From Thermoleophilia bacterium (GTDB lineage: Bacteria > Actinomycetota > Thermoleophilia > Gaiellales > Gaiellaceae), in NCBI GenBank assembly GCA_029865325.1, contig JAOUHF010000010.1:1-39714 (forward strand): a stretch of 39,714 nt of DNA, read 5' to 3'. The position numbers and the translations under genes were made by a program. Every line of letters starts with the position of its first letter. The first letter of the stretch is position 1. Under the pieces are notes generated by a model. It was not told where the DNA came from. It saw nothing but the letters and a program-made list of their open reading frames with translations, and made no database searches. Below, in pieces: positions 3,376 through 38,906 of this stretch.

Positions 3376-3448
3376 TGGGCCGGGTTGGAATCGAACCAAC
3401 GAACTTGGGATTAGAAGTCCGCCGCTCTGTTTACGAAAACGCCGGTTC
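3376..3448 (-). pseudogene. Decayed tRNA-Lys copy (73 nt, 3' half conserved)
   Basis: Aligned without gaps to the intact tRNA-Lys at 6251-6323, this 73-nt stretch matches in 43 of the 45 bases at the 3' end (T-arm and acceptor 3' strand fully kept). It diverges in the 5' half: the D-stem no longer pairs, two acceptor pairs are lost, and the anticodon stem is weakened. The anticodon position reads TCT instead of TTT. Same orientation as the intact gene, 2.8 kb downstream of its 3' end. It gives rise to spurious peptides in other frames (GRVGIEPTNLGLEVRRS type). This looks like a duplicated tRNA 3' end, as left by tRNA-targeted integration or by recombination, and is not a working tRNA. Confidence 0.72.
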
Positions 3449-6250: not shown

Positions 6251-6323
6251 TGGGCCGGGTTGGAATCGAACCAACGACCTTGGGATTAAAAGTCCCCTGC
6301 TCTGCCAACTGAGCTACCGGCCC
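6251..6323 (-). tRNA. tRNA-Lys (anticodon TTT)
   Basis: Full cloverleaf: acceptor GGGCCGG / CCGGCCC, D-arm GCTC...GAGC, anticodon loop CTTTTAA (anticodon TTT), and T-arm with GGTTCGATTCC. It is 73 nt with discriminator A and no encoded CCA. Divergent from the tRNA-Glu/tRNA-Val pair. A decayed copy lies at 3376-3448. Confidence 0.96.
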
Positions 6324-6454: not shown

Positions 6455-6527
6455 GGGCGGTTAGCTCAGCTGGTAGAGCGCCTGCTTTACACGCAGGTGG
6501 CCGCAGGTTCGAGTCCTGCACCGCCCA
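6455..6527 (+). tRNA. tRNA-Val (anticodon TAC)
   Basis: Acceptor GGGCGGT pairs with ACCGCCC; D-arm GCTC...GAGC; anticodon stem CCTGC/GCAGG around TTTACAC, giving anticodon TAC; T-arm GCAGGTTCGAGTCCTGC. It is 73 nt, no encoded CCA. Directly follows tRNA-Glu. Confidence 0.96.
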
Positions 6528-6869
6528 TGTAAGAATCACCCGCTCATCCGGCCCTTTCTGAGTCAGGCGGGTATCGACGGACAGCGCTGGGTCAGCGAAA
6601 GGTCAGCGTTGGCGTGGCTGAAACGGCGGCGAGGCCCGAGGGCGCTCGCACTCCGCGAGGGCCGGCCGTGAAGCGAGGCGATCTCGCGGCCGCCCTCGAC
6701 CCGATTCTCGCCGCCCGCGACGGGCGCGCATGGCTCGTCCCGCCGACCGCGTCCTCGCTGCTCGCCGAGCTCCCGTAAGGCTTTGTTCACCGGCCTTTAC
6801 GCCCTTGGTAAGGATTGCTCTCCCACACTGTCGATGCGGCACAAGTCGCACTCGACGAAGGGAGGCACC
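6528..6869. other. Gene-poor stretch with a coding-like fragment and a dispersed repeat
   Basis: No complete gene. On the plus strand, one frame from about 6620 to a TAA at 6776-6778 reads like the C-terminus of a protein (AVKRGDLAAALDPILAARDG, then RAWLVPPTASSLLAELP) but has no credible start. It includes a 37-bp sequence found again at 10345-10381. I treat it as a gene remnant of unknown origin. The last part, up to 6869, is the leader of the secreted protein gene. Confidence 0.4.
6641..6677. repeat. 37-bp dispersed repeat, copy 1
   Basis: Matches 10345-10381 in 36 of 37 bases (begins GGCGCTCGCACTCCGCGAGG, ends GTGAAGCGAG). Same orientation as copy 2; the sequences diverge directly outside the repeat. 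In both copies one frame reads GARTPRG.AVKR, so it may be the relic of a shared coding segment rather than a palindromic element. Confidence 0.75.
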
Positions 6870-7264: not shown

Positions 7265-7339
7265 TCAGCGCTCGTTCACGCGACCGCGCTCCCGCACGTC
7301 GATCCGCAGGTAGCTCGCGAGGTCGGGGACGTCGCCGCG
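7265..7339 (-). pseudogene. Decayed copy A of a ~60-aa small-protein gene (C-terminal fragment)
   Basis: The minus strand reads RGDVPDLASYLRIDVRERGR and ends VNER plus TGA. It matches the C-terminal half of copies B and E (RGDDPELASYLRIEERE...). The N-terminal half is absent. It is arranged in tandem downstream of copy B, in the same orientation. Confidence 0.6.
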
Positions 7340-7392
7340 GGTTTGGGGCGCGGTCGTCTTCGGCATCGTCGCTGCCGTCTAGCGACCATCCA

Positions 7393-7554
7393 GTTCAGCC
7401 CGCCCGCCTCCAGCTCGCGCTCCTCGATCCGCAGATAGCTCGCAAGCTCGGGATCGTCGCCGCGCACCTCCTCGATGAAGCGCTCGGCGTCCTCGCGGCG
7501 GATGAATGTCTCGACGGCCTCGCCGAGCGGGTGATCGGGGCTGGACCGAACTCG
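7393..7554 (-). pseudogene. Decayed copy B of the ~60-aa small-protein gene
   Basis: This is the longest preserved body of the family: RVRSSPDHPLGEAVETFIRR, then EDAERFIEEVRGDDPELASY and LRIEERELEAGGLN. Compared with copy E the first codons (MIVYAIVD) are frameshifted, and the terminal stop after LN is changed to Trp (TGG; copy C keeps TGA), so the frame reads on into junk and copy A. Many charged residues suggest a small soluble cytosolic protein of alpha/beta type. Function is unknown. Probably no longer expressed as a proper protein. Confidence 0.62.
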
Positions 7555-7663
7555 ACGCACGTGCGTAGATGTTGGCAGCCGCGTCCGTGCGCTCCCCGAT
7601 GCACCGAGGTGCGTCCAGACGCAGTCTCGGGGCGTCGGAGTACGACTCGGGAGGTACGAAGCG

Positions 7664-8026
7664 ATGAGCATCTCCGCCTCCACAAACGAGACCGAGACTG
7701 CCAGGACGGGAGAGGCGATGCCCGTAAGAGCCGAGGACGAACTGCGCCAGGAGGCGATAGCGACCCTCAAGCGGAAGCGGAAGTTCGCGAAGGATCTCTT
7801 TGCGTACGTCTCCGTTAACGGCGTCCTCTGGCTGATCTGGGCGTTGACCGACCGCTCAACCGATGGCGGGATTCCATGGCCTGCCTGGGTCTCGATCATC
7901 TGGGGCTTCTTGCTTGCGGTGGACGCCTGGAGGACGTTCGGCCGTTGGCCTGGAAGCCTGCATCGGCCGATCACCGAGGAGGACATCGAGCGTGAGATGA
8001 GGCGGCTGCAGCCCCCCGGAGCATAG
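7664..8026 (+). CDS. 2TM-domain membrane protein
   Basis: A 120-aa protein. Residues about 24-110 match the 2TM domain pattern: a charged amphipathic stretch (ELRQEAIATLKRKRKFAKD), a first helix LFAYVSVNGVLWLIWAL, a short loop with Gly/Pro (GGIPWPAW), and a second helix VSIIWGFLLAVDAWRTFG. A cytosolic tail with TEEDIEREMRRLQ follows. In other bacteria the domain is found alone or attached to histidine kinases. The start at 7664 follows GGAGGT with an 8-base gap; a second in-frame ATG with upstream GGGAGAGG lies at 7718 and could be used instead. It is a single-gene unit. Confidence 0.82.
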   Translation: MSISASTNETETARTGEAMPVRAEDELRQEAIATLKRKRKFAKDLFAYVSVNGVLWLIWALTDRSTDGGIPWPAWVSIIWGFLLAVDAWRTFGRWPGSLHRPITEEDIEREMRRLQPPGA

Positions 8027-8127
8027 GCAGCGGCGGCTCGTGCTGATCGATCCGCCCAACAAGGGGAGGTTTAGCTCTTCGATGTCGCGGCGAAGCGCTC
8101 GCGCCGTTCGAGCCCGGCGGCTGAGGC

Positions 8128-8634
8128 ATGAGTTCCACGGGCAGTAATCGAGGAGCCATGCGCCTGCCCACACTCGGCAAGCGGGGTGAAGGCTGGGTTG
8201 CGGGTCAGATCCTGCTGATCGCTGCGGTCTTCCTTTCCGCACTCGTGGGCCGAGGCTGGAGCAGCGGCTATGCGGTCGCGGCCTACACCCTCGGCGGAAC
8301 GCTGTTTGCGCTGGGCCTCCTCCTCCTTGCCACAGCCGGACTTCAGCTTGGTACGTCGCTGACGCCGTTCCCTGCTCCGCGAGAAGACCAGCAACTCACC
8401 ACGACCGGCGCATTCGCGCTCGTCCGCCACCCCATGTACGGCGGCGGTATCCTGATCGCCCTCGGCTGGACGATCATCTTCGCCAGCGTCGTCGGGCTGG
8501 GTCTGACGCTCGTTCTCGCGCTCTTTCTCGACCTGAAGGCACGCCGGGAGGAGGTCTGGCTCAGCGAAGGCCTCGACGGCTACGAGGCGTACCAGGAGCG
8601 AACGCGGCGCAAGCTCCTTCCCTTTGTCTACTAG
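8128..8634 (+). CDS. Isoprenylcysteine carboxyl methyltransferase (ICMT/PEMT)-family protein
   Basis: A 168-aa polytopic membrane protein with about four helices. It carries the family signature LVRHPMYGGGILIALGWTI (consensus RHPxYxG), which forms part of the SAM-binding site, then a C-terminal E(E)VWLSEGLDGYEAYQERTRR (consensus EE..L...FG..Y..Y...). Members methylate lipid or prenyl-like substrates at the membrane; the substrate here is unknown. Start is ATG at 8128, with an alternative at 8158 directly before LPTLGKRGEGW. It lies downstream of the 2TM gene by about 100 bases and is probably separately transcribed. Confidence 0.85.
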   Translation: MSSTGSNRGAMRLPTLGKRGEGWVAGQILLIAAVFLSALVGRGWSSGYAVAAYTLGGTLFALGLLLLATAGLQLGTSLTPFPAPREDQQLTTTGAFALVRHPMYGGGILIALGWTIIFASVVGLGLTLVLALFLDLKARREEVWLSEGLDGYEAYQERTRRKLLPFVY

Positions 8635-8725
8635 GTAGCGATCGATCCGGCGATTACATGCCTCGCGCGATGCTGAAGCGCGGCTGACGTATCCGCGGTA
8701 CTTCCGGGTAGGCGGGGTCAGCGAC

Positions 8726-8755
8726 TCAGTTCCGCCCGCCCGCCTCTAGCTCTCG
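8726..8755 (-). pseudogene. Fragment C of the small-gene family (C-terminal end)
   Basis: The minus strand encodes RELEAGGRN and a TGA stop, equivalent to the end of copy B (RELEAGGLN). Upstream in the same frame is unrelated but coding-like sequence (ALRLLERYLTKGSPRLQHFA) back to a stop near 8840, suggesting a fusion of two gene remnants. The stop here supports the original end of the family. Confidence 0.42.
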
Positions 8756-8881
8756 CTTCGCGAGACTCATCGTGATCTGCGCGAAGTGCTGGAGCCTGGG
8801 CGAGCCCTTAGTCAGGTATCGCTCGAGCAGACGCAGCGCTCGTCTTCAGTTACGCGAACCCGGCTTACGATCGCACCACCC

Positions 8882-9871
8882 TCACGCAACCAATTGGCGC
8901 TCGAGCAGTTCGCCGAGGTCGGCGATGACGAGGTCAGCGTCGCGAAGCCTCAGCGCTTCGCCAGCGCGATCCACGGCAACGACGAGCTCGAACCCTCCGG
9001 CACGCCCAGCGGCCACGCCGTCCTGAGTCGTCTCGAAGACCACGGTCCGATCCGGATCGACCCCGAGCCGACGGCAGGCGGCGAGCAGCATGTCGGGTGA
9101 AGGCTTCCTCCGGAGTCCCTCGGCGCGCACGGCGTTTCCGTCGACACACTCGTCGATCAGCCCCCTGAGATGTGCGCGGCTGAGCAGGATCTCCGCGTGC
9201 GTACTCCCCGAGACGACGGCGCAGCGAATCTGCGCGTCGTGAGCGAGCTCGAGGTATAGGCGTGAGCCCTCGAACGCCATGACGCCGCGGTCATCGAGAA
9301 GACGAAGCAGCGCTCGATTCTTCCGGTTGGCGAGCCCGTTCACAGTCTCTGCGTCCGGTGAGTCGTCGGGAGAGCCGTCGGGCAAGACGATCCCTCGAGT
9401 GCCGAGAAACTCGTGGATAGCTTCTGCCCGGCCCTTGCCGTGGATGTGCCTCGGATAGTCCGTGCCGACATCAAAAGATGCAAAAGGCTCGCCCGTCTTC
9501 TCGATGCGCCTCGTGATGAACTCGTCAAAGGTCTCTTTCCAGGCCGCCGCGTGGATCGCGGCGCTTGCCACAAGGACACCGTCGACGCTGAACACACACG
9601 CGAGCGCGTCTGCCGGCAGCCCCAGCAGACGCTTCGTCTCCCATGGTGAGGCGATCAGTCGCACGAGGAAGGGCTTCATGTGTCGTTCTCGGGCGACGGC
9701 ACCGAGCAAGCGGACTGTCTCGCCCCGCTCGTCTGCGAGTCGTTGGCTCCGCAGACGAAGCTCGGCCGCGGGGAAGTCGTGTCTACCCGCTCGGAGTGCG
9801 TCCTGGGCGGCTTCAAGCGCCAAGCGCCACGCTCCGATCAGGACGTCTAGGTCGACGGCGTCGTCAATCAC
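8882..9871 (-). CDS. HAD-IA (beta-phosphoglucomutase-like) protein lacking the nucleophile Asp
   Basis: A 329-aa protein. Residues about 1-85 form a helical N-terminal extension; residues 90-329 are a HAD subfamily IA domain with a cap. Motif I is FSVDGVL (94-100): the catalytic nucleophile Asp is Ser95, while the acid/base Asp97 is kept. Motif II VVSGS and motif III Lys256 (RRKPSPDML) are present. Motif IV reads VVFETTQDGVAAGRAGGF, with the usual ED metal pair changed to Glu280-Thr281. Two key acidic residues are therefore gone, pointing to a non-catalytic or repurposed protein. The frame is intact over its whole length, so it is not an obvious pseudogene. Start GTG at 9871. Confidence 0.82.
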   Translation of the reverse strand: MIDDAVDLDVLIGAWRLALEAAQDALRAGRHDFPAAELRLRSQRLADERGETVRLLGAVARERHMKPFLVRLIASPWETKRLLGLPADALACVFSVDGVLVASAAIHAAAWKETFDEFITRRIEKTGEPFASFDVGTDYPRHIHGKGRAEAIHEFLGTRGIVLPDGSPDDSPDAETVNGLANRKNRALLRLLDDRGVMAFEGSRLYLELAHDAQIRCAVVSGSTHAEILLSRAHLRGLIDECVDGNAVRAEGLRRKPSPDMLLAACRRLGVDPDRTVVFETTQDGVAAGRAGGFELVVAVDRAGEALRLRDADLVIADLGELLERQLVA

Positions 9872-9959
9872 ATCGCAAGTGTGAAGGTCAAAGCTCTGTG
9901 CGGTGCGGCATGCGGTTCGGAGAGGGTGAGCCGTCAGCTTCAGCGTTGGGCTTTACCGG

Positions 9960-10013
9960 CCCGCCCGCCTCTAGCTTCCGCTCCTCGATCCGCAGGTAGC
10001 TCGCGAGCTCGAA
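9960..10013 (-). pseudogene. Fragment D of the small-gene family (C-terminal part)
   Basis: The minus strand encodes FELASYLRIEERKLEAGG, matching copy B (PELASYLRIEERELEAGG) in 16 of 18 residues. The N-terminal part is missing: directly upstream is a different open frame ending at 10014. The usual stop is also lost, and the frame continues PVKPNAEADG. Confidence 0.6.
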
Positions 10014-10193
10014 CTAGGCGACGGAGTCGTTGTTCATTGACGGCTTCTCGTCGCGATCATCTTGGACTCGTTCGCTTTCAGCGCGAGGGATTGAGGACGG
10101 TGCTGCCAGAGGCGCAGGGGCGGTGGCCACGCGCAGAAGCTCGTGCATCCGCGACGACAGGGTGTCAGCACGTATTGCAGCGTCATCGTCCAT
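10014..10193 (-). CDS. Possible 59-aa ORF, doubtful
   Basis: ATG at 10193 to TAG at 10014, reading MDDDAAIRADTLSSRMHELL, then RVATAPAPLAAPSSIPR and an acidic tail. The composition is protein-like (an amphipathic helix followed by an Ala/Pro-rich tail) and upstream codons are also open back to a stop near 10276. No ribosome site and no recognised family. It abuts fragment D, so it may equally be the C-terminal end of a broken gene. Confidence 0.22.
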   Translation of the reverse strand: MDDDAAIRADTLSSRMHELLRVATAPAPLAAPSSIPRAESERVQDDRDEKPSMNNDSVA

Positions 10194-10344
10194 AGGTGCG
10201 GGATCGGCTCTCGCCAGAAGCGCATTGAGCCCGAACGGGGTAGACCGACGCTCAACGGGCGATCCCGTCGTCGCTCGTCAGCGGCGTCGGCGCGATGGCA
10301 ACCTCCAGGAGCGCGACGAGCGGCCCCTTCGGGCTTCCAACCAA

Positions 10345-10381
10345 GGCGCTCGCACTCCGCGAGGGGCGGCCGTGAAGCGAG
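10345..10381. repeat. 37-bp dispersed repeat, copy 2
   Basis: It is 36/37 identical to 6641-6677, in the same orientation (single C/G difference at the 22nd base). It lies just past the end of homology of copy E of the small-gene family, within the region where that reading frame has become arginine-rich and non-natural. Confidence 0.75.
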
Positions 10382-10490
10382 TCGTTCGACCTCTCCTGCG
10401 ACGCGATTCGGCTCCGCCTCCGGGTCCGCCGTCGCTGAACCGACGTTCTCGCGACGCTCCGATCCGAGGACTCAACCAGAATCGCAGGAG

Positions 10491-10646
10491 CTCGATCCGC
10501 AGCAGGCAGCTCGCGAGGTCGGGCTCGTCGTCGCGCACCTCCTCGATGAAGCGCTCCGCGTCCTCGCGACGGACGAACGTCTCGACGGCGTCACCGAGCG
10601 GGTGGTCGGGGCTCGAGCGCACATCGACGATGGCGTAGACGATCAC
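10491..10646 (-). pseudogene. Copy E of the ~60-aa small-protein gene (intact N-terminus, altered C-terminus)
   Basis: ATG at 10646 opens MIVYAIVDVRSSPDHPLGDA, then VETFVRREDAERFIEEVRDD and EPDLASCLLRIE. This is the only copy with an intact start. Compared with copy B it has a 3-base insertion (ASCLLRIE instead of ASYLRIE), and similarity ends after RIE; the frame then runs into arginine-rich sequence to 10278. It could still make a protein of about 122 residues, but the tail is not natural. MIVYAIVDVRSS...HPLGDAVETF suggests a small alpha/beta protein. Function unknown. Confidence 0.55.
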
Positions 10647-10750
10647 GGCCGAGACGATGACGGACTCGGGGTGAGGTGTCGAGATGGCTTCTCCGCACGT
10701 GGCTCGTCTACCCGGAGTGCTTGGGAGCGGGTGTTCGGGGCCGGGAAGCA

Positions 10751-10782: not shown

Positions 10783-11466
10783 TTACGAAGACGCAGACGC
10801 TGGAGGTGTGGTTGCGCCCCCGCCCTTCCAGAAGAGAACGATTCCGACGACGACGATCCACGCCATCCAGACGAACGCTGCGATGAACATGATCGTCGCG
10901 AGCGCAGCGAGCGCGGCGACGACTCCTAGCCAGCCCGCCCACTTCGGCACGACACCCGAGCGAATGAACGCAATCGACGCGGCGAGGATCATGACGCCGA
11001 GAGCCGCTCCTCCCGTCGCGTGCATGACGTACCCCACGTCGCCCGCAGCGTGGATGAGCTCGGGATAGACCTGGTTCTGGTAGGTGTCGTCACTCATCGT
11101 CCTGATCGCGCTTTCGAGAGCGACGGCACTCAGAGCCAGTGCCGCATAGATGCCGCCGCCGAGCGCAGTCAGTGTCCCGAGGATGCCGTCACGGTCGAAT
11201 CTGCTCACCGTCCGCCGAAGCGACGCGACGAAGAAGAGAAAGAAGACGAGGCCGAGGCCCGCGAACAGCCAGCCGAAGTTCACCTGGTTCCGGTTCCCGG
11301 AATCACCGAAATACTCGATGACCTTGTCCGGCGACGAACTCAAGTCGGGTTCGCCGTTGAACATGAAGAAGAGGCCGATGATGAAGAGGGCCACAAAGGC
11401 GACGCCCCCCAGGGCGGACCACTCGGACAGGCCCCGTCTTCCAGCCGCGTGCTGAGGTGATTCCAT
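10783..11466 (-). CDS. Polytopic membrane protein, unknown function
   Basis: About 227 residues from ATG at 11466 (MESPQHAAGRRGLSEWSALG). Six hydrophobic stretches are visible, for example GGVAFVALFIIGLFFMFNG, FAGLGLVFFLFFVASL, LGGGIYAALALSAVALESAI and a C-terminal pair ending FVWMAWIVVVGIVLFW. A periplasmic or outer loop contains SSPDKVIEYFGDSGNRNQ. The overall pattern (EPD..SSPDKVIEYF..SGNR..V..GW....L) is a recurrent, uncharacterised actinobacterial membrane protein type. The start is chosen because AAAGGAAG lies just before it; the frame is open to 11502. Followed by a good terminator, so it is monocistronic. Confidence 0.85.
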   Translation of the reverse strand: MESPQHAAGRRGLSEWSALGGVAFVALFIIGLFFMFNGEPDLSSSPDKVIEYFGDSGNRNQVNFGWLFAGLGLVFFLFFVASLRRTVSRFDRDGILGTLTALGGGIYAALALSAVALESAIRTMSDDTYQNQVYPELIHAAGDVGYVMHATGGAALGVMILAASIAFIRSGVVPKWAGWLGVVAALAALATIMFIAAFVWMAWIVVVGIVLFWKGGGATTPPASASS

Positions 11467-11504
11467 GTCTTCCTTTCTGCCGCTGAGACTCGCCGTTTGC
11501 ACGG

Positions 11505-11831
11505 CGAGTCATGTCAGCGCGACTCTACTCGCGTCGTCCCATGCCGTCGACGCTGCTGCCCTGAGTGCGGGGAGCGGGCGTTCAGTAGTTCCGGGTAGGC
11601 GGAGTGCTTGCCGCGCTGGAAATCTCTCACCGACTTATTAGTGACAACTTGTAACTTGCGTTACGTGAAATCCCCGATGCCGGGTAGCTGGGCCAGGGAT
11701 ATGAGTGCGTGAGAAGAAGGTCAGCTATTCGAAGCCCAGCCTAGTCGGGCGTCGCGGCCCTGTGATCATGCCGATGAGCGCTGTCGGTAGCCGGTCACGA
11801 TTCGCGGGGCGTTTGGTGAAGCATGTCCGGT
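11505..11831. other. Intergenic region without a gene
   Basis: Between rtcB and the membrane protein gene. No coding frame is credible. It holds short pieces that recur elsewhere in the window: TTCCGGGTAGGCGGAGT at 11589 (like 8702) and GAGTGCGGGGAGCGGGCGTTC at 11563 (like 10715). It also has a relatively AT-rich island around 11630-11675 with a dyad. Confidence 0.5.
11651..11664. promoter_or_regulatory. Possible operator dyad GTAAC-TTGC-GTTAC
   Basis: A 5-bp inverted repeat with a 4-base spacer in an AT-rich island, about 185 bases upstream of the membrane protein gene. AACTTGT/AACTTGC is also directly repeated across its left arm. It could be a regulator binding site, but this length can arise by chance. 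Confidence 0.22.
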
Positions 11832-13277
11832 CTAGCCCTTGACGACGCCGATCGGCACGAGCCGCGCGACGCGGCGTGCTAGTCCGGCACGCTGGACGAC
11901 CTCGACGACCCGCTCGACGTCCTTGTAGGCGAACGGCGCCTCCTCGGCGAGGCCTTTGTTCGAGGAGCAGCGGACAACGATCCCTTGCGCCTCGAGCTGG
12001 CGGCGCAGCTCGGCGCCTCCGATCCGCTTGCGGGCGGCCGTTCGAGACATGGCTCGTCCGGCCCCGTGACAGGTCGTGCCGAAAGAGCGCTCCATCGAGC
12101 CGGGCTCGCCGGCGAGGACGAAGCTGGCCGTGCCCATACTGCCGGGAATGAAGACCGGTTGGCCGACTGTGCGGAAATCGGCGGGGATCTCCGACGATCC
12201 GGCCGGGAAGGCGCGCGTGGCTCCCTTGCGGTGCACGAGGAGGTCGCGGCCCCGGTAGCGCTCGACCTTCGCAACGTTGTGGGCGACGTCGTAGACCTGT
12301 CGGGTCGCTTCAGCCACGTTCGGACCGAGCACGCGGGCGATCGCCTCGCGGACGCAATGGGCCATCGCGTGCCGGTTGGCGAAGGCGAAGTTAGCGGCCG
12401 CTGCCATGGCTGCGAGGTACGCGCGACCTTCCGGAGAGGAGGCGGGCGCGCAGGCGAGCTGACGGTCCGGTAGCAGGATCTGGTAGCGGGCTTGCACGGC
12501 ATCCATTGCACGCACGTGGTCGGTGCAGACCTGATGGCCGAGCCCGCGCGAGCCCGAGTGAATGAGCACGGTGATCTGATCGTCGTGCAGCCCGAACGTC
12601 CCGGCGGCAGCCGGGTCGAAGACACGCGCCACTCGCTGCAGCTCGATGAAGTGATTGCCTGCACCGGCCGTGCCGAGCTGCCCGGTGCCACGCTCGTGGG
12701 CCCGTGCGGAGACAGCAGCCGGATCAGCCCCCGGCAGGCAGCCCTGTGACTCCGTGCGCTCGAGATCGTCCTCCCGGCCGATGCCGCGGGAGACGAGCGC
12801 GCGTGGTCCTTCGCGCAGCACAACGTCGAGCTCGGGCCAGGAAAGGCTCAGCGACCCGTGCTTGCCCGTCCCCGCCGGGATCGCTCGTGAGAACTCGTGC
12901 ACGAGAGGCTCCCGGCGATCGCCGAGGTCGCTTGTCGACAGCGGGAGGACGAGCAGCCGTACACCGCAGTTGATGTCGTAGCCAACCCCGCCCGGGGAGA
13001 CCACCCCGTCCGGGAGCTCCATCGCCGCGACACCGCCGACCGGAAAGCCGTACCCCTGATGGATATCCGGCATGGCAAGCGCGGCGTCGACGATCCCGGG
13101 GAGCGTGGCGACATTCTGGAGCTGCTCGAGACACTGGTCGCGAACGATTGCGTCGAGCAGCTCTCGGTCGGCGAAGATTCGCCCCGGTACGCGCATATCC
13201 GGCCGTGCGCCCACGGGAATCTCCCACAACATCTCGTCGATACGGACCAACTCTGACGTCGAGAGCGCGATTGCCAC
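11832..13277 (-). CDS. rtcB: RNA-splicing ligase RtcB
   Basis: A 481-aa GTP- and Mn-dependent RNA ligase joining 2',3'-cyclic-phosphate or 3'-phosphate ends to 5'-OH ends. Visible signatures are MPDIHQGYGFPVGGVAAME, VSPGGVGYDINCGVRLL (metal-binding Asp and Cys), GTAGAGNHFIELQ, HSGSRGLGHQ, YDVAHNVAKVE, HRKGATRAFP (the His guanylylated in family members), PGSMGTASFVL and GAGRAMSR. The length is normal. GTG at 13277 is preferred because AAGGAGG lies at the right distance; another GTG is at 13283. No archease or RNA cyclase gene adjoins it. Roles in relatives are tRNA or rRNA repair after stress. Confidence 0.96.
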   Translation of the reverse strand: MAIALSTSELVRIDEMLWEIPVGARPDMRVPGRIFADRELLDAIVRDQCLEQLQNVATLPGIVDAALAMPDIHQGYGFPVGGVAAMELPDGVVSPGGVGYDINCGVRLLVLPLSTSDLGDRREPLVHEFSRAIPAGTGKHGSLSLSWPELDVVLREGPRALVSRGIGREDDLERTESQGCLPGADPAAVSARAHERGTGQLGTAGAGNHFIELQRVARVFDPAAAGTFGLHDDQITVLIHSGSRGLGHQVCTDHVRAMDAVQARYQILLPDRQLACAPASSPEGRAYLAAMAAAANFAFANRHAMAHCVREAIARVLGPNVAEATRQVYDVAHNVAKVERYRGRDLLVHRKGATRAFPAGSSEIPADFRTVGQPVFIPGSMGTASFVLAGEPGSMERSFGTTCHGAGRAMSRTAARKRIGGAELRRQLEAQGIVVRCSSNKGLAEEAPFAYKDVERVVEVVQRAGLARRVARLVPIGVVKG

Positions 13278-13283
13278 CAGCAC

Positions 13284-13637
13284 CCTCCTTCAGAGCCAGC
13301 ATGCCCACGACGCGAGGCGCCGCAATCAGGGACGTCACGGACTGAAGCGCGGAGATTCCCGCATCGTCCTCAGATACTCGTCTGCCTACAGCCACTCCGG
13401 GAGAAGCCGCATCGCCGTCACCGGGCCCGGAGGTCCAGGCGATGAGCAGCGTGTCTTCTGCTCGAGACGAGGTTCTGCGTTTGAACCTCGACTTCTCCTC
13501 GTGCCAGCTCGGAGTGGGCGAGTGTCGCCGGTGACAGAGTTCGCCGACGTGGGCGTAGACCCGTAGTTGGCGATAGGGCAAGCCGTTACGCGTTCCAACC
13601 CGCTGTGGGGGTCTCGCAGCGGTCGCAGAATCGGCGC
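13284..13637. other. Intergenic region, nothing recognised
   Basis: Holds the ribosome-binding region of rtcB (CCTCCTT on the plus strand at 13285-13291). No RNA gene, repeat or credible small gene seen; open frames here have unnatural composition. Confidence 0.5.
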
Positions 13638-23285: not shown

Positions 23286-23510
23286 CCTTTGGGAGCAAGT
23301 TTGCGGCCCTTCGCGATGTGTGTACGTGCGCCTCGAAACATCTTCGGTATTCCAGTTTTGACAACATCCCGGACAGAATATTCACCGGCGCCAAGGAGAG
23401 CGACGACACGAGCAGCGCCAACCAGCAGTGACAGAGGGGTCAGGAAAACACGTGCGGTGCCTACTCTGGTGCCTACCTCGGGATTTCGCCGAACCTGACA
23501 ACATGACGTC

Positions 23511-23570
23511 GTGCGCGTCTTCGTGATCCTCGACAATCGTTCGAGCCTCGATCACCCGCTCGGCGACGCG
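23511..23570 (+). pseudogene. Fragment F of the small-gene family (N-terminal part, plus strand)
   Basis: From GTG at 23511 the frame reads VRVFVILDNRSSLDHPLGDA, matching the start of copy E (MIVYAIVDVRSSPDHPLGDA) in 13 of 20 residues including the HPLGDA core. Similarity stops there and the frame runs on into sequence antisense to nhaA. It is opposite in orientation to the other copies and about 13 kb away from them. Confidence 0.55.
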
Positions 23571-23597
23571 GGTCGAGCACTTTGGAACGAGAGCGAC

Positions 23598-25031: not shown

Positions 25032-25130
25032 ATCCTTGATACCAAGCGTCTAATACCAGGTAACACAGAACTCCCGCTCCCAGTACTCCGGGCAGCAGAC
25101 GTGCTGGACGACGAGGGTGGAGTGACTCCG

Positions 25131-30744: not shown

Positions 30745-32226
30745 TTACCAGCCTGGGGGCGCGACGATGTACACGGCAACGCCCAGACCCGGAAGCTTGT
30801 CCACGACGAGGTCGCCGAGTGGAGTGACGACACGCCCGTCGCGAAAGACGCGAAGCTTGCGGCCGCCGAGACCCGGAATCGTGAACGACGCGCTCGTCGG
30901 GGAGGTCGACGTGTTCACGGCGATGACGTATGTCGCGCCGTTGTAGCGGCGAGCTCCCACGCGCACGGGGCTCTCGGTCGACCAGTTCGCCTTCGCGACG
31001 GGTGCGAGGAGTGCAGGGGCAAGGGCCAGGATCTCCCGGTTCACGAGGCGCACCTCGTTGCGAATGTCCTCGGCCCACCAGTCGGGGAAGTAGCCGATGC
31101 CACGGGCGCCGCCGGCGATCGCCAGCCAGGTCTCGGCGCGGACGACTACGGGAGTCGGATCCTCGTTGTTGTGGCAGTGCTCCATCGGTCCGGCTTCGAT
31201 CCATTGGAACGTCGGCTTGCCGCCGGTGAGCGAGACGAGCTCGCGCTGCATCCAGTAGACGTTGTCGATCTGCGCGAGCGAGCAGCGGACCTCGACCGGA
31301 TACGTGTCGAACCCGATCACGTCCCCGCGCTCGAAGAACTTCGGATAGATGCTCTTCCCAAAGGGACCGGGGGCGGCGTTCACCGAGAACTTGTCGGTCA
31401 GCGTCAGGAACGTGACCCTCCCGCTCGCCTGTGGCTTCGGGAGGCTCTCCACGATTCCCACGGAGACGTCTGCCTCATCGGGCAGATGCCATCCGACGAC
31501 ACCAGGGCCTGAGATCCCGGGCGTCTTGGCGTCGACGGTGGAGATTGCGCGACCCGCGAGCCGGTCGAACTGCTCGTCGGGCTCCGCACAGCTCACGCCG
31601 AGGAAGAGGTTGATCCCCGCTCCCATGCTCGTCGGGTAGTAGGTCGGACACTGTCGCCAGACCATGCGCGGGAAGATCGCGCTGCCGTTCAGGCGGAGCG
31701 GCGACGAGCTCTCCACCTTTGGTGTTCCGGGAGGAAGCGCGCCGGTGCTCGACGGCGGCGCCGGGGTGACGCCGGGTGGGAGCGCGGGTGGCAACACGAA
31801 CGGGGACGCAGAGCTGGGCGTCGAGACGTCGGCAGCAGCGGGCACGGCGGTCGCGGCCGTCGACGACGGCCACGGGTCCGTGCGGAACGAGCCGCGCGCT
31901 TCGGCTTTCATCCCGTTTCGCCAACGCGCGACGACCCGGAATCGATACGTCGTTGCGGGCTCGAGACCAGAGAGGGTCGTGCGCGCGGTCAGTGCGTTGT
32001 GCGCGACCGTTGTGGGAGACCAGATGCCGTAGCGGTCATCCAGCCCCACCTCGAGCACGATCCGACCCGGGTCGGAGACGCGCCACTTGACCATGGCCGA
32101 GAAGGGTCGGGCCTCGACGTCGAGGATGTCTGCGGTGGCTGCGCGAGTGGCGTTAGCGCCGCTCGACGCGAGCGCCGCGACCGCGGCGAGCGCGAGCAGG
32201 AGGAGTACAGCGGATCGCCGCAGCAT
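30745..32226 (-). CDS. Secreted FN3-domain protein with glycosidase-like region
   Basis: About 493 residues from ATG at 32226 (MLRRSAVLLLLALAAVAALA, signal peptide; alternative start 32247). Residues about 35-125 form a fibronectin type III-like domain (AMVKWRVSDPGRIVLEVGLD; GLEPATTYRFRVVARW). Next is a Pro/Ser/Thr-rich linker to about 180 (PALPPGVTPAPPSSTGALPP). The C-terminal 310 residues look like a TIM-barrel glycosidase-like region: FPRMVWRQCPTYYPTSMGAG, VVGWHLPDEADVSVG, DVIGFDTYPVEVR, GKPTFQWIEAG, and GARGIGYFPDWWAED. WHLPDEAD and QWIEAG offer acidic residues in plausible catalytic positions. The C-terminus is a beta domain (GVAVYIVAPPG). Substrate unknown; probably extracellular polysaccharide. 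Confidence 0.8.
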   Translation of the reverse strand: MLRRSAVLLLLALAAVAALASSGANATRAATADILDVEARPFSAMVKWRVSDPGRIVLEVGLDDRYGIWSPTTVAHNALTARTTLSGLEPATTYRFRVVARWRNGMKAEARGSFRTDPWPSSTAATAVPAAADVSTPSSASPFVLPPALPPGVTPAPPSSTGALPPGTPKVESSSPLRLNGSAIFPRMVWRQCPTYYPTSMGAGINLFLGVSCAEPDEQFDRLAGRAISTVDAKTPGISGPGVVGWHLPDEADVSVGIVESLPKPQASGRVTFLTLTDKFSVNAAPGPFGKSIYPKFFERGDVIGFDTYPVEVRCSLAQIDNVYWMQRELVSLTGGKPTFQWIEAGPMEHCHNNEDPTPVVVRAETWLAIAGGARGIGYFPDWWAEDIRNEVRLVNREILALAPALLAPVAKANWSTESPVRVGARRYNGATYVIAVNTSTSPTSASFTIPGLGGRKLRVFRDGRVVTPLGDLVVDKLPGLGVAVYIVAPPGW

Positions 32227-32403
32227 GAGATCAAGGTCGGCACCCACTCGGAACCGCGTGTCCCTCGGACGAGGGAACCCCTTCGGGTGGGGCTCAGAGG
32301 TCTGAGATGTGGCGCCTGGATGACGGCCTGCCGGACTACGAACTCGTTGTGCTCAGACGCCTCGTCCCACTCGATGGTGGCACCGACTGGTAGCGTCGCG
32401 GCC

Positions 32404-32859
32404 GTGTCGAAGGCGATCATGACCACGAGCGAAGGTGCCATCGAAATCGAGCTCTTCGACGGCGATGCGCCTCGGACCGTCGAGAACTTCACGAAGCTCG
32501 CCGCCGACGGCTACTACGACGGTGGTGTCTTTCATCGCGTGATCCCCGACTTCATGATTCAGGGCGGATGCCCGCGGGGCGACGGCACCGGTGGACCCGG
32601 GTACACGTTCGAGGACGAGTTCAACGATCACCCGGTCGCGCGTGGCTACCTCGCGATGGCCAACTCCGGACCGGACACGAACGGCTCGCAGTTCTTCATC
32701 GTCACCGCCGAGGACTGCTCGTGGCTGAATGGCAAGCACACTGTCTTCGGCCGAGTTACTGCAGGGCAGGATGTCGCCGACCGGATCTCGCTCGTCGAGC
32801 GAGACATGCGAGACCGCCCGCTCGAGCCAATCGCCATCGAGTCCGTCCAGCTCAGCTAG
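32404..32859 (+). CDS. Cyclophilin-type peptidyl-prolyl cis-trans isomerase
   Basis: A 151-aa cytosolic cyclophilin catalysing proline isomerisation during folding. Signatures are GAIEIELFDGDAPRTVENFT, GVFHRVIPDFMIQGGCPRGD (catalytic Arg, Phe and Gln), AMANSGPDTNGSQFFI, and WLNGKHTVFGRVTAGQDVAD. No signal peptide. GTG at 32404 is used; ATG at 32419 is the alternative. Slightly shorter than eukaryotic cyclophilins, as usual for bacterial single-domain members. It stands alone between a convergent FN3 gene upstream and an SDR downstream, separated from the latter by a strong hairpin. Confidence 0.95.
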   Translation: MSKAIMTTSEGAIEIELFDGDAPRTVENFTKLAADGYYDGGVFHRVIPDFMIQGGCPRGDGTGGPGYTFEDEFNDHPVARGYLAMANSGPDTNGSQFFIVTAEDCSWLNGKHTVFGRVTAGQDVADRISLVERDMRDRPLEPIAIESVQLS

Positions 32860-32890
32860 CTCTCTGGCGCAAGACCGCGCTGGCCTACGC

Positions 32891-32928
32891 ATGACCCGGG
32901 GTCAGACCCGGGGTCTGACCCCGGGCAT
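32891..32928. repeat. Long perfect hairpin (REP-like or terminator) after cyclophilin
   Basis: Arms CCCGGGGTCAGACC and GGTCTGACCCCGGG pair perfectly (14 bp) around a 3-base CGG loop; outside them ATG/CAT extends the stem with one bulged base. The GGGGTCTGACCCC core resembles a widespread intergenic repeat seen in high-GC soil bacteria. It lies 32 bases after the cyclophilin stop, so it can also act as a terminator, though without a T-run. Confidence 0.85.
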
Positions 32929-32955
32929 GGCCTCGGCGGACTAGGCTCCCGGCGC

Positions 32956-33687
32956 ATGGAACTCGAAGGCAAGACGGCGATCGTCACGGGCGCGTCGAGC
33001 GGCATCGGCGCCGCTACCGTGCGCAAGCTGCGCGCGGCCGGTGTCCGCGTCGCGGGCGGCGCGCGTCGCGTCGCGCGCATCGAGGCCGACCTCGCTCTTC
33101 CGCTCGACGTCACCGACGAGGAGAGCTGCGCCGCGTTCGTCACGCGGGCCGCATCGGAGCTCGGCGGGGTCGACATCCTCTTCAACAACGCCGGCCTTGC
33201 TCTAGGCCGCTACCCGTTCTGGGAGTCGAATCCCGACGACGAAGCGACCGTCCTGCATACGAATGTGGACGGCGTGCTGCGCATGACTCGTATCTGCCTT
33301 CCGCACATTCGCGACCAGGGACACATCGTCTTCATGGGTTCGGTAGCAGGGCGCCAGGCGTACCAGAACGCCGCCTCGTACGTTGCTGCGAAGTTCGGGC
33401 TGCGCGGGTTCGTCTACGCGCTTCGCGAGGATCTTCTCGGGCGCCCCATCCGGATCACGACTGTGGATGCAGGCCTCGTGGAGTCCGAGTTCTCGCTGGT
33501 GCGCTTCCGAGGCGACGAAGACGCCGCGAAGGCCGTCTACGCAGGCGTCGAGCCGGTCACACCGGAGGAGATTGCGGACTGCGTGCTCTTCGCTCTCACG
33601 CGCCCACTCCACGTCAACATCGACGAGATCGTGATCAAGGCGCTTGCCCAGTCGAGTGGGGCGCGGGTCGTGCGCCGCGAGAAATAG
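32956..33687 (+). CDS. Short-chain dehydrogenase/reductase (classical SDR)
   Basis: A 243-aa classical SDR. Visible are the cofactor motif TGASSGIG (residues 10-17), the Asp of PLDVTDEESC, NNAG in ILFNNAGLALGRYPF, the catalytic Ser in IVFMGSVAGR, YxxxK as SYVAAKFGLRG, and TTVDAGLVESEFS after it. The Arg-rich GGARRVARIE after the second strand favours NADP. It is of the YdfG/serine-dehydrogenase-like cytosolic group; substrate unknown. The ATG at 32956 follows GGCTCCCGGC without a strong ribosome site. 11 bases before the debranching enzyme gene, so it probably leads that operon. Confidence 0.93.
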   Translation: MELEGKTAIVTGASSGIGAATVRKLRAAGVRVAGGARRVARIEADLALPLDVTDEESCAAFVTRAASELGGVDILFNNAGLALGRYPFWESNPDDEATVLHTNVDGVLRMTRICLPHIRDQGHIVFMGSVAGRQAYQNAASYVAAKFGLRGFVYALREDLLGRPIRITTVDAGLVESEFSLVRFRGDEDAAKAVYAGVEPVTPEEIADCVLFALTRPLHVNIDEIVIKALAQSSGARVVRREK

Positions 33688-33698
33688 CGCACCCTTCG

Positions 33699-35756
33699 AT
33701 GCTCACGATCCTCGAGGGATCAACGTTCTGCATCTGCGACGAGCTCGGCGACATCGCTGCCGACACGAGCGGGTTCTTCGCGCACGACACGCGCTTCCTC
33801 TCTCGACTCGCCCTTCGGATCGAGGACGCGAGCCCGCTGCTCTTGTCCTCTGGCCGGGTCGAGCACTTCCAGGCCGCCTTCTACCTTCGTAACGCGCCGA
33901 ACGGGCTGCCGCGGGATGCCCTTTCGATCGCCCGCGAGCGGTTTGTCGGAACGGGGTTACGGGAACAGATCATCGTGCGGAACGAGAGCATGGAGCGACT
34001 CGAGTTCACGCTCGCTCTCGAGATCGCCGCCGACTTCGCGGACATCATCTCGGTGAAGCAGCACGATTTCGCTCTCGGCGATCCGGTCCATGCCGCGGCG
34101 CTCCCGGATGCTGCTCCGGCCACATATGACACAGAGCAGCGACGGCTTTCGATCGTCGATCCCGCCGGGGATCTCAGCACCCGGGTCGTCTTCTCGCATT
34201 CCGGGCGCCTCGACGACGAGGCGGTGGCCTTCGACGTCGCACTCGAGCCGAACGAGCAGTGGGATCTGAGAGTCGACGTGCTGCCCTCACTGGACGGGGA
34301 GGCCGAGATCGCGCCGCCCGAGAACATCGACGGGGAGCGTGAGACCGCGGCGGACGCCGTGGCGGCCTGGACGCTGCGCGTTCCTCGCGTGCGCGGCGGC
34401 TGGGAGAGTCTCAGGCACGCCTTCGATCGGTCGATCGCCGACCTTGCGGCTTTGCGCATGCGGACGGGCGAGTACCGACGGCCGCTGTTCGCAGCCGGGA
34501 TGCCGTGGTTCATGACCGTGTTCGGGCGTGACACCGCAATCACCTCTCTCCAGACGCTTCTTCTTGGTCCCGAGGTCGGGATCGGCGCGCTCGACGCCCT
34601 CGCCGAGTTACAGGCGCAGGAGGATGACCCCACGATCGATGCTGAACCGGGGAAGATCGTTCACGAGGTCAGGCGCGGTCGCTGCGCGGAGACCTGGTTT
34701 CCTCGTTACTACGGCTCGCTCGACTCGACGCCGCTCTTCCTCGTCCTCCTCGCAGAGACGTGGCGGTGGACCGACGACTCCACGCTTGCGACCCGGCTAC
34801 AAGAGCCCGCGCTTCTCGCCCTCGAGTGGATCGACCGTTACGGCGACCGCGACGGCGACGGGTTCGTCGAGTACAGCCGGCATGTCGACCACGGGCTCGC
34901 GAACCAATCCTGGAAGGACTCGGGTGACTCGCAGCGGTTCCACGACGGCCGGTTCGCCGAGCCGCCGATCGCTCCGGTCGAGGTTCAGGGTTACGTGTAC
35001 GACGCAAAACGCGGGCTCGCCGAAATCGCCCGGGAGGTGTGGCGCGATCCTGCGCTCGGTGACCGTCTGGAACAGGAGGCGAACGATCTCCGAGCCCGCT
35101 TCGACGAGGCGTTCTGGGTCGATGAGCGCGGCGGCTTCTACGCACTGGCGATCGACGGGGAGAAACGGCCCGTCGATGCGCGCTGCTCGAACATGGGCCA
35201 TCTCCTCTGGAGCGGAATCGTCCTTCCCGAGCGCGTCCAACCGACGGTCGACCAGCTTCTCTCGACCGAGCTGTGGTCGGGCTGGGGAATCCGCACGATG
35301 GCGAGCGACGCGGCTGCGTACAACCCGATCAGTTACCACAACGGAACGGTGTGGCCGCACGACTCCGCCCTAGCCGTGTGGGGGCTCGCGCGGCATGGCT
35401 ATGTCGAGGAGGCTCGGCGCGTCTCGCGGGCTCTGATCGAAGCTGCCGCATACTTCGACTGGTCGCTTCCCGAGGTCTTCGCGGGCTACGCCCGGGGTGA
35501 GACACCGTTCCCCATTGCTTACCCGACAGCCGCTCGCCCGCAGGCATGGGCGGCCGGAACCCCCGTCCTCCTCGTCAGGGTTCTCCTGGGAATAGAACCG
35601 GACCGTGCCCGCCAGCGTCTGATCTCGACCGTGACCGACGAGCTGCCGAGCTGGCTCGACGGGCTCACAGTCGAGGGCGTCCGCGCCTACGGTCGCACGT
35701 GGACGGTTGCAGTTGAGCGTGGCCATGTCACCATCTCCGAGGTGTCTAGGCAATGA
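33699..35756 (+). CDS. Amylo-alpha-1,6-glucosidase / glycogen-debranching-type protein
   Basis: A 685-aa protein. The N-terminal about 210 residues form a GDE_N_bis beta domain (STFCICDELGDIAADTSGFF, AHDTRFLSRLALRIED). Residues about 230-660 form an (alpha/alpha)6 catalytic region: AAGMPWFMTVFGRDTAITSL (FGRDT typical), GKIVHEVRRGRCAETWFPRY, YYGSLDSTPLFLVLLAETWR, GLANQSWKDSGDSQRFHDG (WKDSGD), EVQGYVYDAKRGLAEIA, and MGHLLWSGIV. The C-terminus has YHNGTVWPHDSALAVWGLAR. It is cytosolic. Many actinobacteria pair this protein with the GT4 gene that follows; both are thought to act on glucans or related oligosaccharides. Stop overlaps the GT4 start (ATGA). Confidence 0.93.
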   Translation: MLTILEGSTFCICDELGDIAADTSGFFAHDTRFLSRLALRIEDASPLLLSSGRVEHFQAAFYLRNAPNGLPRDALSIARERFVGTGLREQIIVRNESMERLEFTLALEIAADFADIISVKQHDFALGDPVHAAALPDAAPATYDTEQRRLSIVDPAGDLSTRVVFSHSGRLDDEAVAFDVALEPNEQWDLRVDVLPSLDGEAEIAPPENIDGERETAADAVAAWTLRVPRVRGGWESLRHAFDRSIADLAALRMRTGEYRRPLFAAGMPWFMTVFGRDTAITSLQTLLLGPEVGIGALDALAELQAQEDDPTIDAEPGKIVHEVRRGRCAETWFPRYYGSLDSTPLFLVLLAETWRWTDDSTLATRLQEPALLALEWIDRYGDRDGDGFVEYSRHVDHGLANQSWKDSGDSQRFHDGRFAEPPIAPVEVQGYVYDAKRGLAEIAREVWRDPALGDRLEQEANDLRARFDEAFWVDERGGFYALAIDGEKRPVDARCSNMGHLLWSGIVLPERVQPTVDQLLSTELWSGWGIRTMASDAAAYNPISYHNGTVWPHDSALAVWGLARHGYVEEARRVSRALIEAAAYFDWSLPEVFAGYARGETPFPIAYPTAARPQAWAAGTPVLLVRVLLGIEPDRARQRLISTVTDELPSWLDGLTVEGVRAYGRTWTVAVERGHVTISEVSRQ

Positions 35757-36799
35757 GGATCGGCCTCGTCTGTTCCGTGTGGTTCCCGGTGCCCCCCGAG
35801 GCGTACGGGGGAACCGAGCGCGTCGTTGCCCTGCTCGCTGACGGGCTCGTCGACGCCGGCCACGACGTCACGCTGTTCGCTTCCGGTGACTCGCAGACTC
35901 GCGCCCGTCTCGAGGCGGTCTTCCAGACGGCCCCCAGCGAATGGATCGGGCATACGTACTGGGAGATGCAGCATGCGGTCCATGCGTTCCGCAAGGCCCG
36001 TTCGTTCGACGTCTTCCACGATCACACCGGACTGCTCGGTCTCGCATTCGCCGGCCTCGTCAGCGTGCCGTTCTGCCACACGGTGCACGGACCGCTCGAC
36101 GGCCAGCCCGGCCGCCTCTACGAGCAGGTCGTCGACCTCGCGCCGAATGCCAAGCTGATCTCGATCTCGATGAACCAGCGGAAGCCGAAGCCGGCGCTTC
36201 CGTGGATCGCGAACTGCCCGAACGCGCTCGATCTCTCGATGTTTCCCTTCCGTCGGAAGTCGGGCGGCGACTACCTCGTCTTCCTCGGGCGCATGAGCCC
36301 GGAGAAGGGAGCGCACCGGGCGCTCGCCGTCGCTCTCGAGATGGGCCTGCCGCTGAAGATCGCTGCCAAGTGCCGCGAGCCCCTCGAGATCAGGTACTTC
36401 GACGAGTTCATCCGACCCCATCTCGGAGGCTCGATCGAGTACGTGGGCGAGGTCGGACACGCCGACAAGGTCGAGTTGCTGCTGGGCGCTCGGGCCCTCA
36501 TCTCCCCGATCGACTGGGAGGAGCCGTTCGGGCTGATGATGATCGAGGCGATGGCGTGCGGGACACCTGTGATCTCGACGCGCCGAGGTGCAGTCCCCGA
36601 GATCATCGACCACGGGCGAACGGGCGTCATGGTCGACAACTACCGCGACATGGAGGACCCGGCAATCCTCGCGCTCGCCGATTCGCTCGATCCTGCGGTG
36701 ATCCGCCGCGAGGTCGAGGAGCGGTTCTCGCCCGAGAACATGGTGCAGAGCTACGTCGCGGCCTACGAGGCGACGATCGAAGCCACTCGCGGCGCGTGA
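35753..36799 (+). CDS. GT4-family glycosyltransferase
   Basis: A 348-aa GT-B transferase. N-terminus MRIGLVCSVWFPVPPEAYGG then TERVVALLADGLVDAGHDVT, where the glycine-rich PEAYGGTERVV is the acceptor loop. C-terminal half: YLVFLGRMSPEKGAHRALAV, GEVGHADKVELLLGARALIS, then the donor site WEEPFGLMMIEAMACGTPVI and RRGAVPEIIDHGRTGVMVDN. It is retaining and nucleotide-sugar dependent, and the acceptor is unknown. It overlaps the debranching gene by 4 bases at its start and the MATE gene by 4 bases at its end, so the three are translated as one coupled unit. Confidence 0.94.
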   Translation: MRIGLVCSVWFPVPPEAYGGTERVVALLADGLVDAGHDVTLFASGDSQTRARLEAVFQTAPSEWIGHTYWEMQHAVHAFRKARSFDVFHDHTGLLGLAFAGLVSVPFCHTVHGPLDGQPGRLYEQVVDLAPNAKLISISMNQRKPKPALPWIANCPNALDLSMFPFRRKSGGDYLVFLGRMSPEKGAHRALAVALEMGLPLKIAAKCREPLEIRYFDEFIRPHLGGSIEYVGEVGHADKVELLLGARALISPIDWEEPFGLMMIEAMACGTPVISTRRGAVPEIIDHGRTGVMVDNYRDMEDPAILALADSLDPAVIRREVEERFSPENMVQSYVAAYEATIEATRGA

Positions 36800-38100
36800 G
36801 GCTGCGCTCTCCGTACGACCGCGAGATCGTGCGGCTCGCGCTCCCCGCGCTGGGCGCCCTCGCCGCGGAGCCGCTCTACCTCCTCGTCGACACCGCGATC
36901 GTCGGTCATCTCGGACGGTCCCAGCTCGCCGCTCTCGGGATCGCGTTCACGATCCTCGGCGGGCTCTTCGCGATCTTCAACTTCCTCCAGTACGGGACGA
37001 CGGCACAAGTCGCGCGCGCAGGCGGAGCCGGGGAGAGCGAGACCGCACGACGGCTCGGGGCGCAGGCTGTCTGGCTATCGCTCGCCTTCGGCATCGCGGT
37101 GTCGGTGCTCGTCGCAGTGCTGGCCGAGCCGCTCGTTTCGCTCATGGGTGGAGAGGGCGATGCAGCCGACTACGCGGTCACCTACTTGCGGATCGCGGCC
37201 GTCGGCTTCCCGGCCGCGTTTCTCGCACTCGGAGGCCAGGGCTACCTGCGCGGGGTGGCCGATCTCCGAACTCCACTGGCGATCCTCATCGCCGGGAACG
37301 TCGTGAACCTCGTGCTCGAGGTCCTCTTCGTCTATGGGTTCGACTGGGGAATCGAGGGCTCGGCGTGGGGGACTGCGATCGCCCAGCTAGGGATGGGCGC
37401 AGCGTTCATCGTCGTGATCGTCCGTCGGCTGCAGCCTGGCGAGATGCGCGTGCAGATCGTTCTCGCGCGCCGGGTGCTCTCGCTCGGGAAGTGGATCTTC
37501 GTCCGCACTTCAGCACTCATGGGCGCGTTTGTCCTTGCAGGTGCAGTGGCGACGCGTTTCGGGGAGGCCTCGATCGCGGCGCATCAGATCGCCTTCCAGC
37601 TCTGGATCTTCCTCGCGCTCGTCCTCGACTCCGTTGCGATCGCCGGGCAGATCATCGTCGGGCGTGAGCTGGGCGCCGGTCGGCAGGACGAGGCATACGG
37701 TGCGGGCGACCGGATGATCTGGCTCTCAGTTGGGCTTGGCGCTGCCTTCGCGGCTCTGATGCTGGTGCTCTCGAGCGTGCTCCCGCGGGCGTTCACGGGC
37801 GATGCGGCGGTCCTCGACGAAACTGCGCTCCTCTGGCCGCTGTTCGCGGTCATGCAGCCGCTGAACGGTGCGGTCTTCGCGCTCGACGGGATTCTGATCG
37901 GAGCAGGAGACGGGCCGTTCCTCGCGGGCTCGATGGTGGCTGCGTTCCTCGCCTGCGTTGCCGTTCTCGTCGGCTCGCTGGTCGGCGACTGGGGAATCCG
38001 TGGGGTGTGGGCGGCGCTCGTGATCCTCATCCTCGTGCGGCTGGCGCTGATGACCGCGCGCTTCCGTCGCGGCCGGTGGCTCGTCACCGGCTGGGCCTAA
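36796..38100 (+). CDS. MATE-family multidrug/oligosaccharide-type exporter (DinF-like)
   Basis: A 434-aa membrane protein with about 12 helices in two homologous bundles: LALPALGALAAEPLYLLVDT followed by AIVGHLGRSQLAALGIAFTI (MATE signature), SLMGGEGDAADYAVTYLRI, GYLRGVADLRTPLAILIAGN, then EASIAAHQIAFQLWIFLALV and SVAIAGQIIVGRELGAGRQD in the second half. It couples export to a Na+ or H+ gradient. The start is GTG at 36796, overlapping the GT4 stop (GTGA); the longer open frame back to 35941 is only the GT4 gene read in another frame. Coupling to GT4 and a debranching enzyme suggests a sugar-containing cargo, which is inference. Confidence 0.93.
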   Translation: MRLRSPYDREIVRLALPALGALAAEPLYLLVDTAIVGHLGRSQLAALGIAFTILGGLFAIFNFLQYGTTAQVARAGGAGESETARRLGAQAVWLSLAFGIAVSVLVAVLAEPLVSLMGGEGDAADYAVTYLRIAAVGFPAAFLALGGQGYLRGVADLRTPLAILIAGNVVNLVLEVLFVYGFDWGIEGSAWGTAIAQLGMGAAFIVVIVRRLQPGEMRVQIVLARRVLSLGKWIFVRTSALMGAFVLAGAVATRFGEASIAAHQIAFQLWIFLALVLDSVAIAGQIIVGRELGAGRQDEAYGAGDRMIWLSVGLGAAFAALMLVLSSVLPRAFTGDAAVLDETALLWPLFAVMQPLNGAVFALDGILIGAGDGPFLAGSMVAAFLACVAVLVGSLVGDWGIRGVWAALVILILVRLALMTARFRRGRWLVTGWA

Positions 38101-38154
38101 TTCCCACCTCGACACACGGGCACCGTTCTCCGCGTGCGTCGTATGATGAGGCGC

Positions 38155-38862
38155 ATGCTCGCGCTGGATGCGAGGCCGGCCCCGCTGCTCGTCGATCCGG
38201 AACGAACGGCCGTCGTCGTCGTCGACATGCAGAACGACTTCGGCGCGCCGGGTGGCATGTTCGAGCTGGCCGGCATCGACATCAGCGGGATCACGAAAGC
38301 AGCAGCGGCGACCGGCCCGGTTCTAGGGGCAGCGCGCGATGTGGGTATCCCGGTCGTCTACCTGAAAATGGAGCATGCTCCGGATCTCTCCGACGTCGGT
38401 CCGGCCGATGGCCCGCATTGGATCAAGCATCTGCCACTCCGCGTCGGAGACGAGGTGGTCGCGCCCGACGGCTCCACGAGCCGGATCCTCGTGCGAGGGA
38501 CGTGGAACACGCAGATTCTCGATGTTCTCACACCCGAGCCCCGCGACCACCTCGTGTCCAAGCACCGCTACAGCGGGTTCTTCGAGACGGAGTTGGACGA
38601 CGTGCTTCGTGGACTCGGAGCGAAGTACCTACTCGTCACCGGCTGTACGACGAGCGTCTGCGTCGAGTCGACGGTACGAGACGCTGCGTTCCGCGACTAC
38701 TCGTGCATCGTTCTCGAGGACTGCACGGCTGAGCCGATCGGCGCCGGTCTGGCGCGGACGAATCACGACGCCTCGCTGCTCGTCGTCGAAACGCTCTTTG
38801 GCTGGATCTCGAGCAGTCGCGTAGTTTGCGACGCGCTCGCGCAGCAAGTTCAGCTCGTCTGA
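38155..38862 (+). CDS. Isochorismatase-fold cysteine hydrolase (RutB-like)
   Basis: A 235-aa cysteine hydrolase. Triad: Asp in AVVVVDMQNDFGAPGGMFEL, Lys in VSKHRYSGFFETELDD, and Cys in LLVTGCTTSVCVESTVRDAA. GTWNTQILDVLTPEP and the insertion WIKHLPLRVGDEVVAPDG resemble ureidoacrylate or N-carbamoyl amide hydrolases (RutB/biuret group) more than nicotinamidase. The ATG at 38155 is chosen; in-frame starts exist at 38134 and 38143-38146. It is 54 bases downstream of the MATE gene and may be its own unit. Substrate is inferred to be a small amide or carbamate. Confidence 0.9.
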   Translation: MLALDARPAPLLVDPERTAVVVVDMQNDFGAPGGMFELAGIDISGITKAAAATGPVLGAARDVGIPVVYLKMEHAPDLSDVGPADGPHWIKHLPLRVGDEVVAPDGSTSRILVRGTWNTQILDVLTPEPRDHLVSKHRYSGFFETELDDVLRGLGAKYLLVTGCTTSVCVESTVRDAAFRDYSCIVLEDCTAEPIGAGLARTNHDASLLVVETLFGWISSSRVVCDALAQQVQLV

Positions 38863-38906
38863 TCTGCGGGCGACGGTCACGACCTCGCGGGGCTAAGCTC
38901 GGCGCG

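Follow-up and report, generated by a model that had tools for sequence, protein, structure and literature searches.

Relics of two tiny genes in tRNA-anchored variable islands of a soil actinobacterium

Known islands and integrative elements that are anchored at tRNA genes insert on the 3′ side of the tRNA and are characterized by directly repeated tRNA 3′ ends, by tyrosine-recombinase remnants, and by variable cargo between conserved flanks. Chromosomal integrons hold cassette arrays in which small accessory genes lie between co-oriented repeats. The islands described here resemble the tRNA-anchored elements in their position and variable cargo, and some of them also in the repeats and recombinase remnants, but their recurring marker is a pair of decayed tiny genes, and no intact element is known. 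They share the co-oriented repeats and the intervening small genes with integron arrays, whereas their repeats are truncated coding sequence, biased by codon position, in which no hairpin is conserved. The best explanation, to which we assign a probability of about two-thirds, is that integrative elements accreted at tRNA 3′ ends and were eroded, leaving the relics as remains of their cargo. The relics would then be a fossil marker of repeated tRNA integration in a group, the uncultured soil actinobacteria, about whose mobile elements little is known, and would point to an uncatalogued family of small acidic proteins linked to integrative elements.

The window, i.e. the whole stretch of 39,714 bp that was analysed, belongs to a 2.59-Mb draft genome (95% complete) of a soil actinobacterium of the class Thermoleophilia; genome-wide statements are based on database searches and selected contigs. 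The initial annotation had described six fragments (A–F) of one small gene in it, and all six are indeed homologous to one another (family 1). When its consensus is used as the tblastn query, B scores 107 bits, E 89, D 36.2, and F and A 30.4 each, compared to a best score of 24.3 bits in 30 block-shuffled control windows. At 20.8 bits, the protein match of C lies under this maximum, but C is recovered by a DNA profile (E=8e-5) and is 87.5% identical over 72 bp, 3′ flank included, to a copy on contig C156 (L017), so that the evidence for C is confined to the DNA level. Relics A (7288–7339; DNA profile E=7e-12) and D (9957–10023; E=1e-15) are C-terminal pieces, and C (8723–8763) comprises the last codons and the TGA. 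B (7389–7560; E=4e-55) is the body of the gene, which has lost its start region and has its stop codon changed to TGG. E (10491–10646) retains an intact start, has lost its tail, and carries a 3-bp insertion in the indel map. A to E lie on the minus strand, and F (23489–23577; E=3e-13), which covers the 5′ end and the start region, lies on the plus strand. Upstream of the gene, the homology extends up to 120 bp in some copies; this extension was overlooked in the initial annotation, as were the relics of a second gene. In relic E, which spans 10491–10737 in the DNA profile when its 5′ flank is included, the conserved flank (10647–10738, minus strand) ends in the tail of that second gene on the opposite strand (10711–10738). 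The same layout of 5′ flank and antisense tail is found in copies on contigs C126, C65, and C1.

The second small gene (family 2), whose relics end in FCPECWEREFGSSG, accompanies copies of family 1: it is present at more than 15 sites, most of them on contigs that also carry family 1. DNA profiles place its 3′ ends in the window at 8696–8721 (plus strand), 11558–11602 (plus strand, E=2e-11), and 25054–25093 (minus strand, E=2e-9). The family 2 3′ end lies antisense to family 1 in several copies, at a distance of ~64–119 bp on the upstream side. Elsewhere, the genes converge with 14 bp between their stop codons, as for relic C and its neighbour (8696–8763) and on C156 (527–699). A 43-bp repeat (93%) that is unrelated to both families occurs in two intergenic gaps of the window (6641–6683 and 10345–10387) and is possibly a third relic family. 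Window positions 13247–13527 also match another relic-bearing contig (L133, 17755–18184) in two stretches of 166 bp (91%) and 124 bp (85%).

The protein encoded by family 1 has ~61 residues and is highly acidic. Variants that are common to at least two copies fall at third codon positions in 49 of 100 cases, and 39 are synonymous, against ~24% expected at random; both enrichments are weaker among variants seen in a single copy. Third positions have diverged by 0.227 and first and second positions by 0.116 (p=3e-4). Measured in the same copies, third positions (0.245) evolve at the same rate as the non-coding 5′ flank (0.252), and the other two positions reach slightly more than half of that rate. 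Since the shared differences are mainly at third positions, the copies diverged mostly while the gene was functional and decayed afterwards. The 3′ pieces, which are commoner than 5′ pieces, keep the third-position bias, and a drop in divergence at third positions in the 3′ part falls short of significance (p=0.08). Sequence searches of Pfam, NCBIfam, PHROGs, and the PDB returned no credible family for the protein, and literature searches returned nothing on it. An AlphaFold model of copy E was discarded for its mean pLDDT of 54. That a small acidic protein on mobile DNA served as an accessory or counter-defence factor is a guess only.

Copies of family 1 are scattered across the intergenic gaps of the genome, where 26 protein-level matches correspond to ~23 distinct partial copies, with additional tails detected by DNA only. 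Clear protein-level copies are present in four of ten relatives from the genus, and a DNA query reveals further tails, with 12 matches in relative G006 alone; genus relatives carry 2–12 partial copies each. Each copy in the genome and in these four relatives is truncated, frameshifted, or missing its start or stop, so that none can be read through as one complete open frame. A multicopy family that had dispersed and then decayed was proposed in the initial annotation and is borne out by these broken copies. The tblastn check that it suggested returned homologues in the genome and its genus relatives, all of them broken, and the intact copy that it expected elsewhere in the genome was not found. 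The genomes searched contained no close copy that is intact, and among 399 genomes of the class family 1 was located in its own genus and, beyond it, very distant relatives only. A contig end lies no more than 600 bp away from 6 of the 23 copies, where 2 would be expected, and the draft assembly could lack a nearly identical intact copy. The end of the window (39577–39714) and that of a second contig of the genome (L139, 8109–8246) share 138 bp at 99% identity; judged by this end identity, contigs C96 and C124 are probably adjacent.

The relic arrays are interleaved with ordinary accessory genes, one or two of which lie between pieces on either strand; several are small, and half have no Pfam match. 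Those in the window include a 2TM-domain protein (7664–8026, plus strand, PF13239), a PEMT/ICMT-type membrane methyltransferase (8128–8634, plus strand, PF04191), a HAD-family hydrolase (8882–9871, minus strand, PF00702), and a DUF4386-like membrane protein that scores below Pfam's cut-off (10783–11502, minus strand). The relics themselves keep a constant polarity. When family 1 is counted as forward and family 2 as reverse, the latter being a post hoc choice, 31 of 34 neighbouring pairs less than 3 kb apart agree (P=4e-7). Family 1 pieces by themselves agree in 16 of 19 pairs, counted by hand from the same list.

All relics of the window are contained in a variable interval of 24.2 kb (6528–30744), which was delimited by tblastx synteny. 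Its left edge is a tRNA-Val(tac) gene (6455–6527, plus strand; ARAGORN, Rfam, and synteny), on the 3′ side of which the array begins after 0.76 kb. The right flank (30745–39254) is conserved and collinear with contig C136 of G006 (49430–57013), at 76–86% identity in most blocks and 59% in one. Between collinear flanks, the matching tRNA-Val site of G006 holds 6.6 kb of unrelated genes and its own family 1 relics. A tRNA gene lies within 2.5 kb of 6 of the ~15 loci in the genome, where ~1.5 are expected (P=0.002, assuming ~50 tRNA genes in the genome), and the relics are on the 3′ side of the linked tRNA in 10 of 10 cases. For about half of the relic loci, the stretch examined contains no tRNA, in some cases because the contig ends. 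Direct repeats of a tRNA 3′ end bound relic islands on contig C42 of G006 (tRNA-Gly, 30/30 bp) and on contig C2 of relative G010 (tRNA-His, 47 bp, 89%); the C136 island of G006 has a 45-bp repeat (80%) of the tRNA-Val 3′ end. Tyrosine-integrase remnants adjoin the tRNA in C42 and C2, the only two relic islands in which they were seen. In the window, no integrase was detected by motif or tblastn, and the right end of the interval showed no tRNA-Val repeat. The only such repeat in the window belongs to a tRNA-Lys(ttt) gene of the same hotspot (6251–6323, minus strand), whose 3′ end recurs as a 54-bp direct repeat (93%; 3376–3429, minus strand) 2.8 kb on the 3′ side of the tRNA and represents the remnant of an attachment site from a separate event. 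A 46-bp copy (91%) of the tRNA-Gly 3′ end is located within a relic array (L133, 16245–16290); contigs C8 and C156 may be part of one island. In G010, the 5′ half of tRNA-His is duplicated without mismatch over 33 bp (L141, 3550–3582) just upstream of the complete gene.

In the proposed mechanism, the gene for the ~61-residue acidic protein would have been carried as cargo by elements that insert at tRNA 3′ ends. Site-specific recombination would bring successive elements to the same place in the same orientation, and their remains would pile up in arrays of one orientation, interspersed with other cargo genes. Selection would have maintained the gene while the elements lived; after these were stranded, each copy would be broken independently. 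Both the mobility of the gene on those elements and the role of accretion in producing the polarity are inferred. The dispersal and decay proposed in the initial annotation are kept in this explanation; the annotation had missed the partner family, the polarity shared by the pieces, and the anchoring of the variable island at a tRNA. The genomes searched yielded no intact element with an intact copy, and searches of viral (IMG/VR), phage, and plasmid sequences for family 1 were negative. As a counterpoint, the hotspots may simply tolerate junk. This is part of an alternative in which a chromosomal family was duplicated in local tandem, dispersed by rearrangement, and lost its function, with the debris surviving near tRNAs. 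Tandem duplication also predicts a constant polarity, the third-position bias is compatible with long-lived functional paralogues, and the 120-bp 5′ flank that is common to four copies indicates that gene and flank were duplicated together. We nevertheless consider this origin unlikely, as the copies occupy many tRNA loci, their 3′ flanks are unrelated despite a neutral divergence of only ~25%, and the matching site in G006 has relics while its other genes are unrelated.

It is much less probable that the conserved 3′ ends of both genes are recombination sites of a non-integron, cassette-like gene capture at tRNA loci. Co-oriented pieces do follow each other every 0.4–1.3 kb, separated by one or two small accessory genes, pieces on C42 of G006 lie within 8–17 bp of genes, and the excess of 3′ pieces fits as well. 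But the ends of the pieces vary, the third-position bias persists within 3′ pieces, and single strands fold no better than shuffles (z 0.1 to 1.6 for pieces, −1.6 for the composite site). With no folding excess, and with the expected integron core motifs absent on inspection by eye, an attC-type hairpin with conserved core sites was rejected. A passenger gene of an insertion sequence is the most improbable origin. It is suggested by a copy on contig C137 of G010 that is fused to the end of a DDE transposase, the sole other genus copy of which lies ~0.7 kb from a relic in G006. This transposase is missing from the genome that holds most copies, for which reason the explanation was rejected, and the copy alignment reveals neither repeated terminal inverted repeats nor common ends.

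Apparently intact acidic relatives of 57–64 residues, which are not covered by Pfam or NCBIfam models, are encoded elsewhere in the class (e.g. L155, L161, L162, and L164). They resemble family 1 in length and in a similar YAL...F.RREDA..L...DEP pattern, and differ from it in being apparently intact, in occurring once or twice per genome, and in their identity to it of ~27%. All tested members are strongly acidic, with a pI of 4.05–4.34 in the distant relatives. A full-length comparison of the two profiles by hhalign yields a probability of 96.7% (E=3.4e-10, 52 columns), a value that is somewhat favoured by gathering the distant members with a related query, and supports a shared origin. One of the distant genes is located 118 bp on the 3′ side of a tRNA-Gly, and another ~260 bp from a tyrosine integrase motif.
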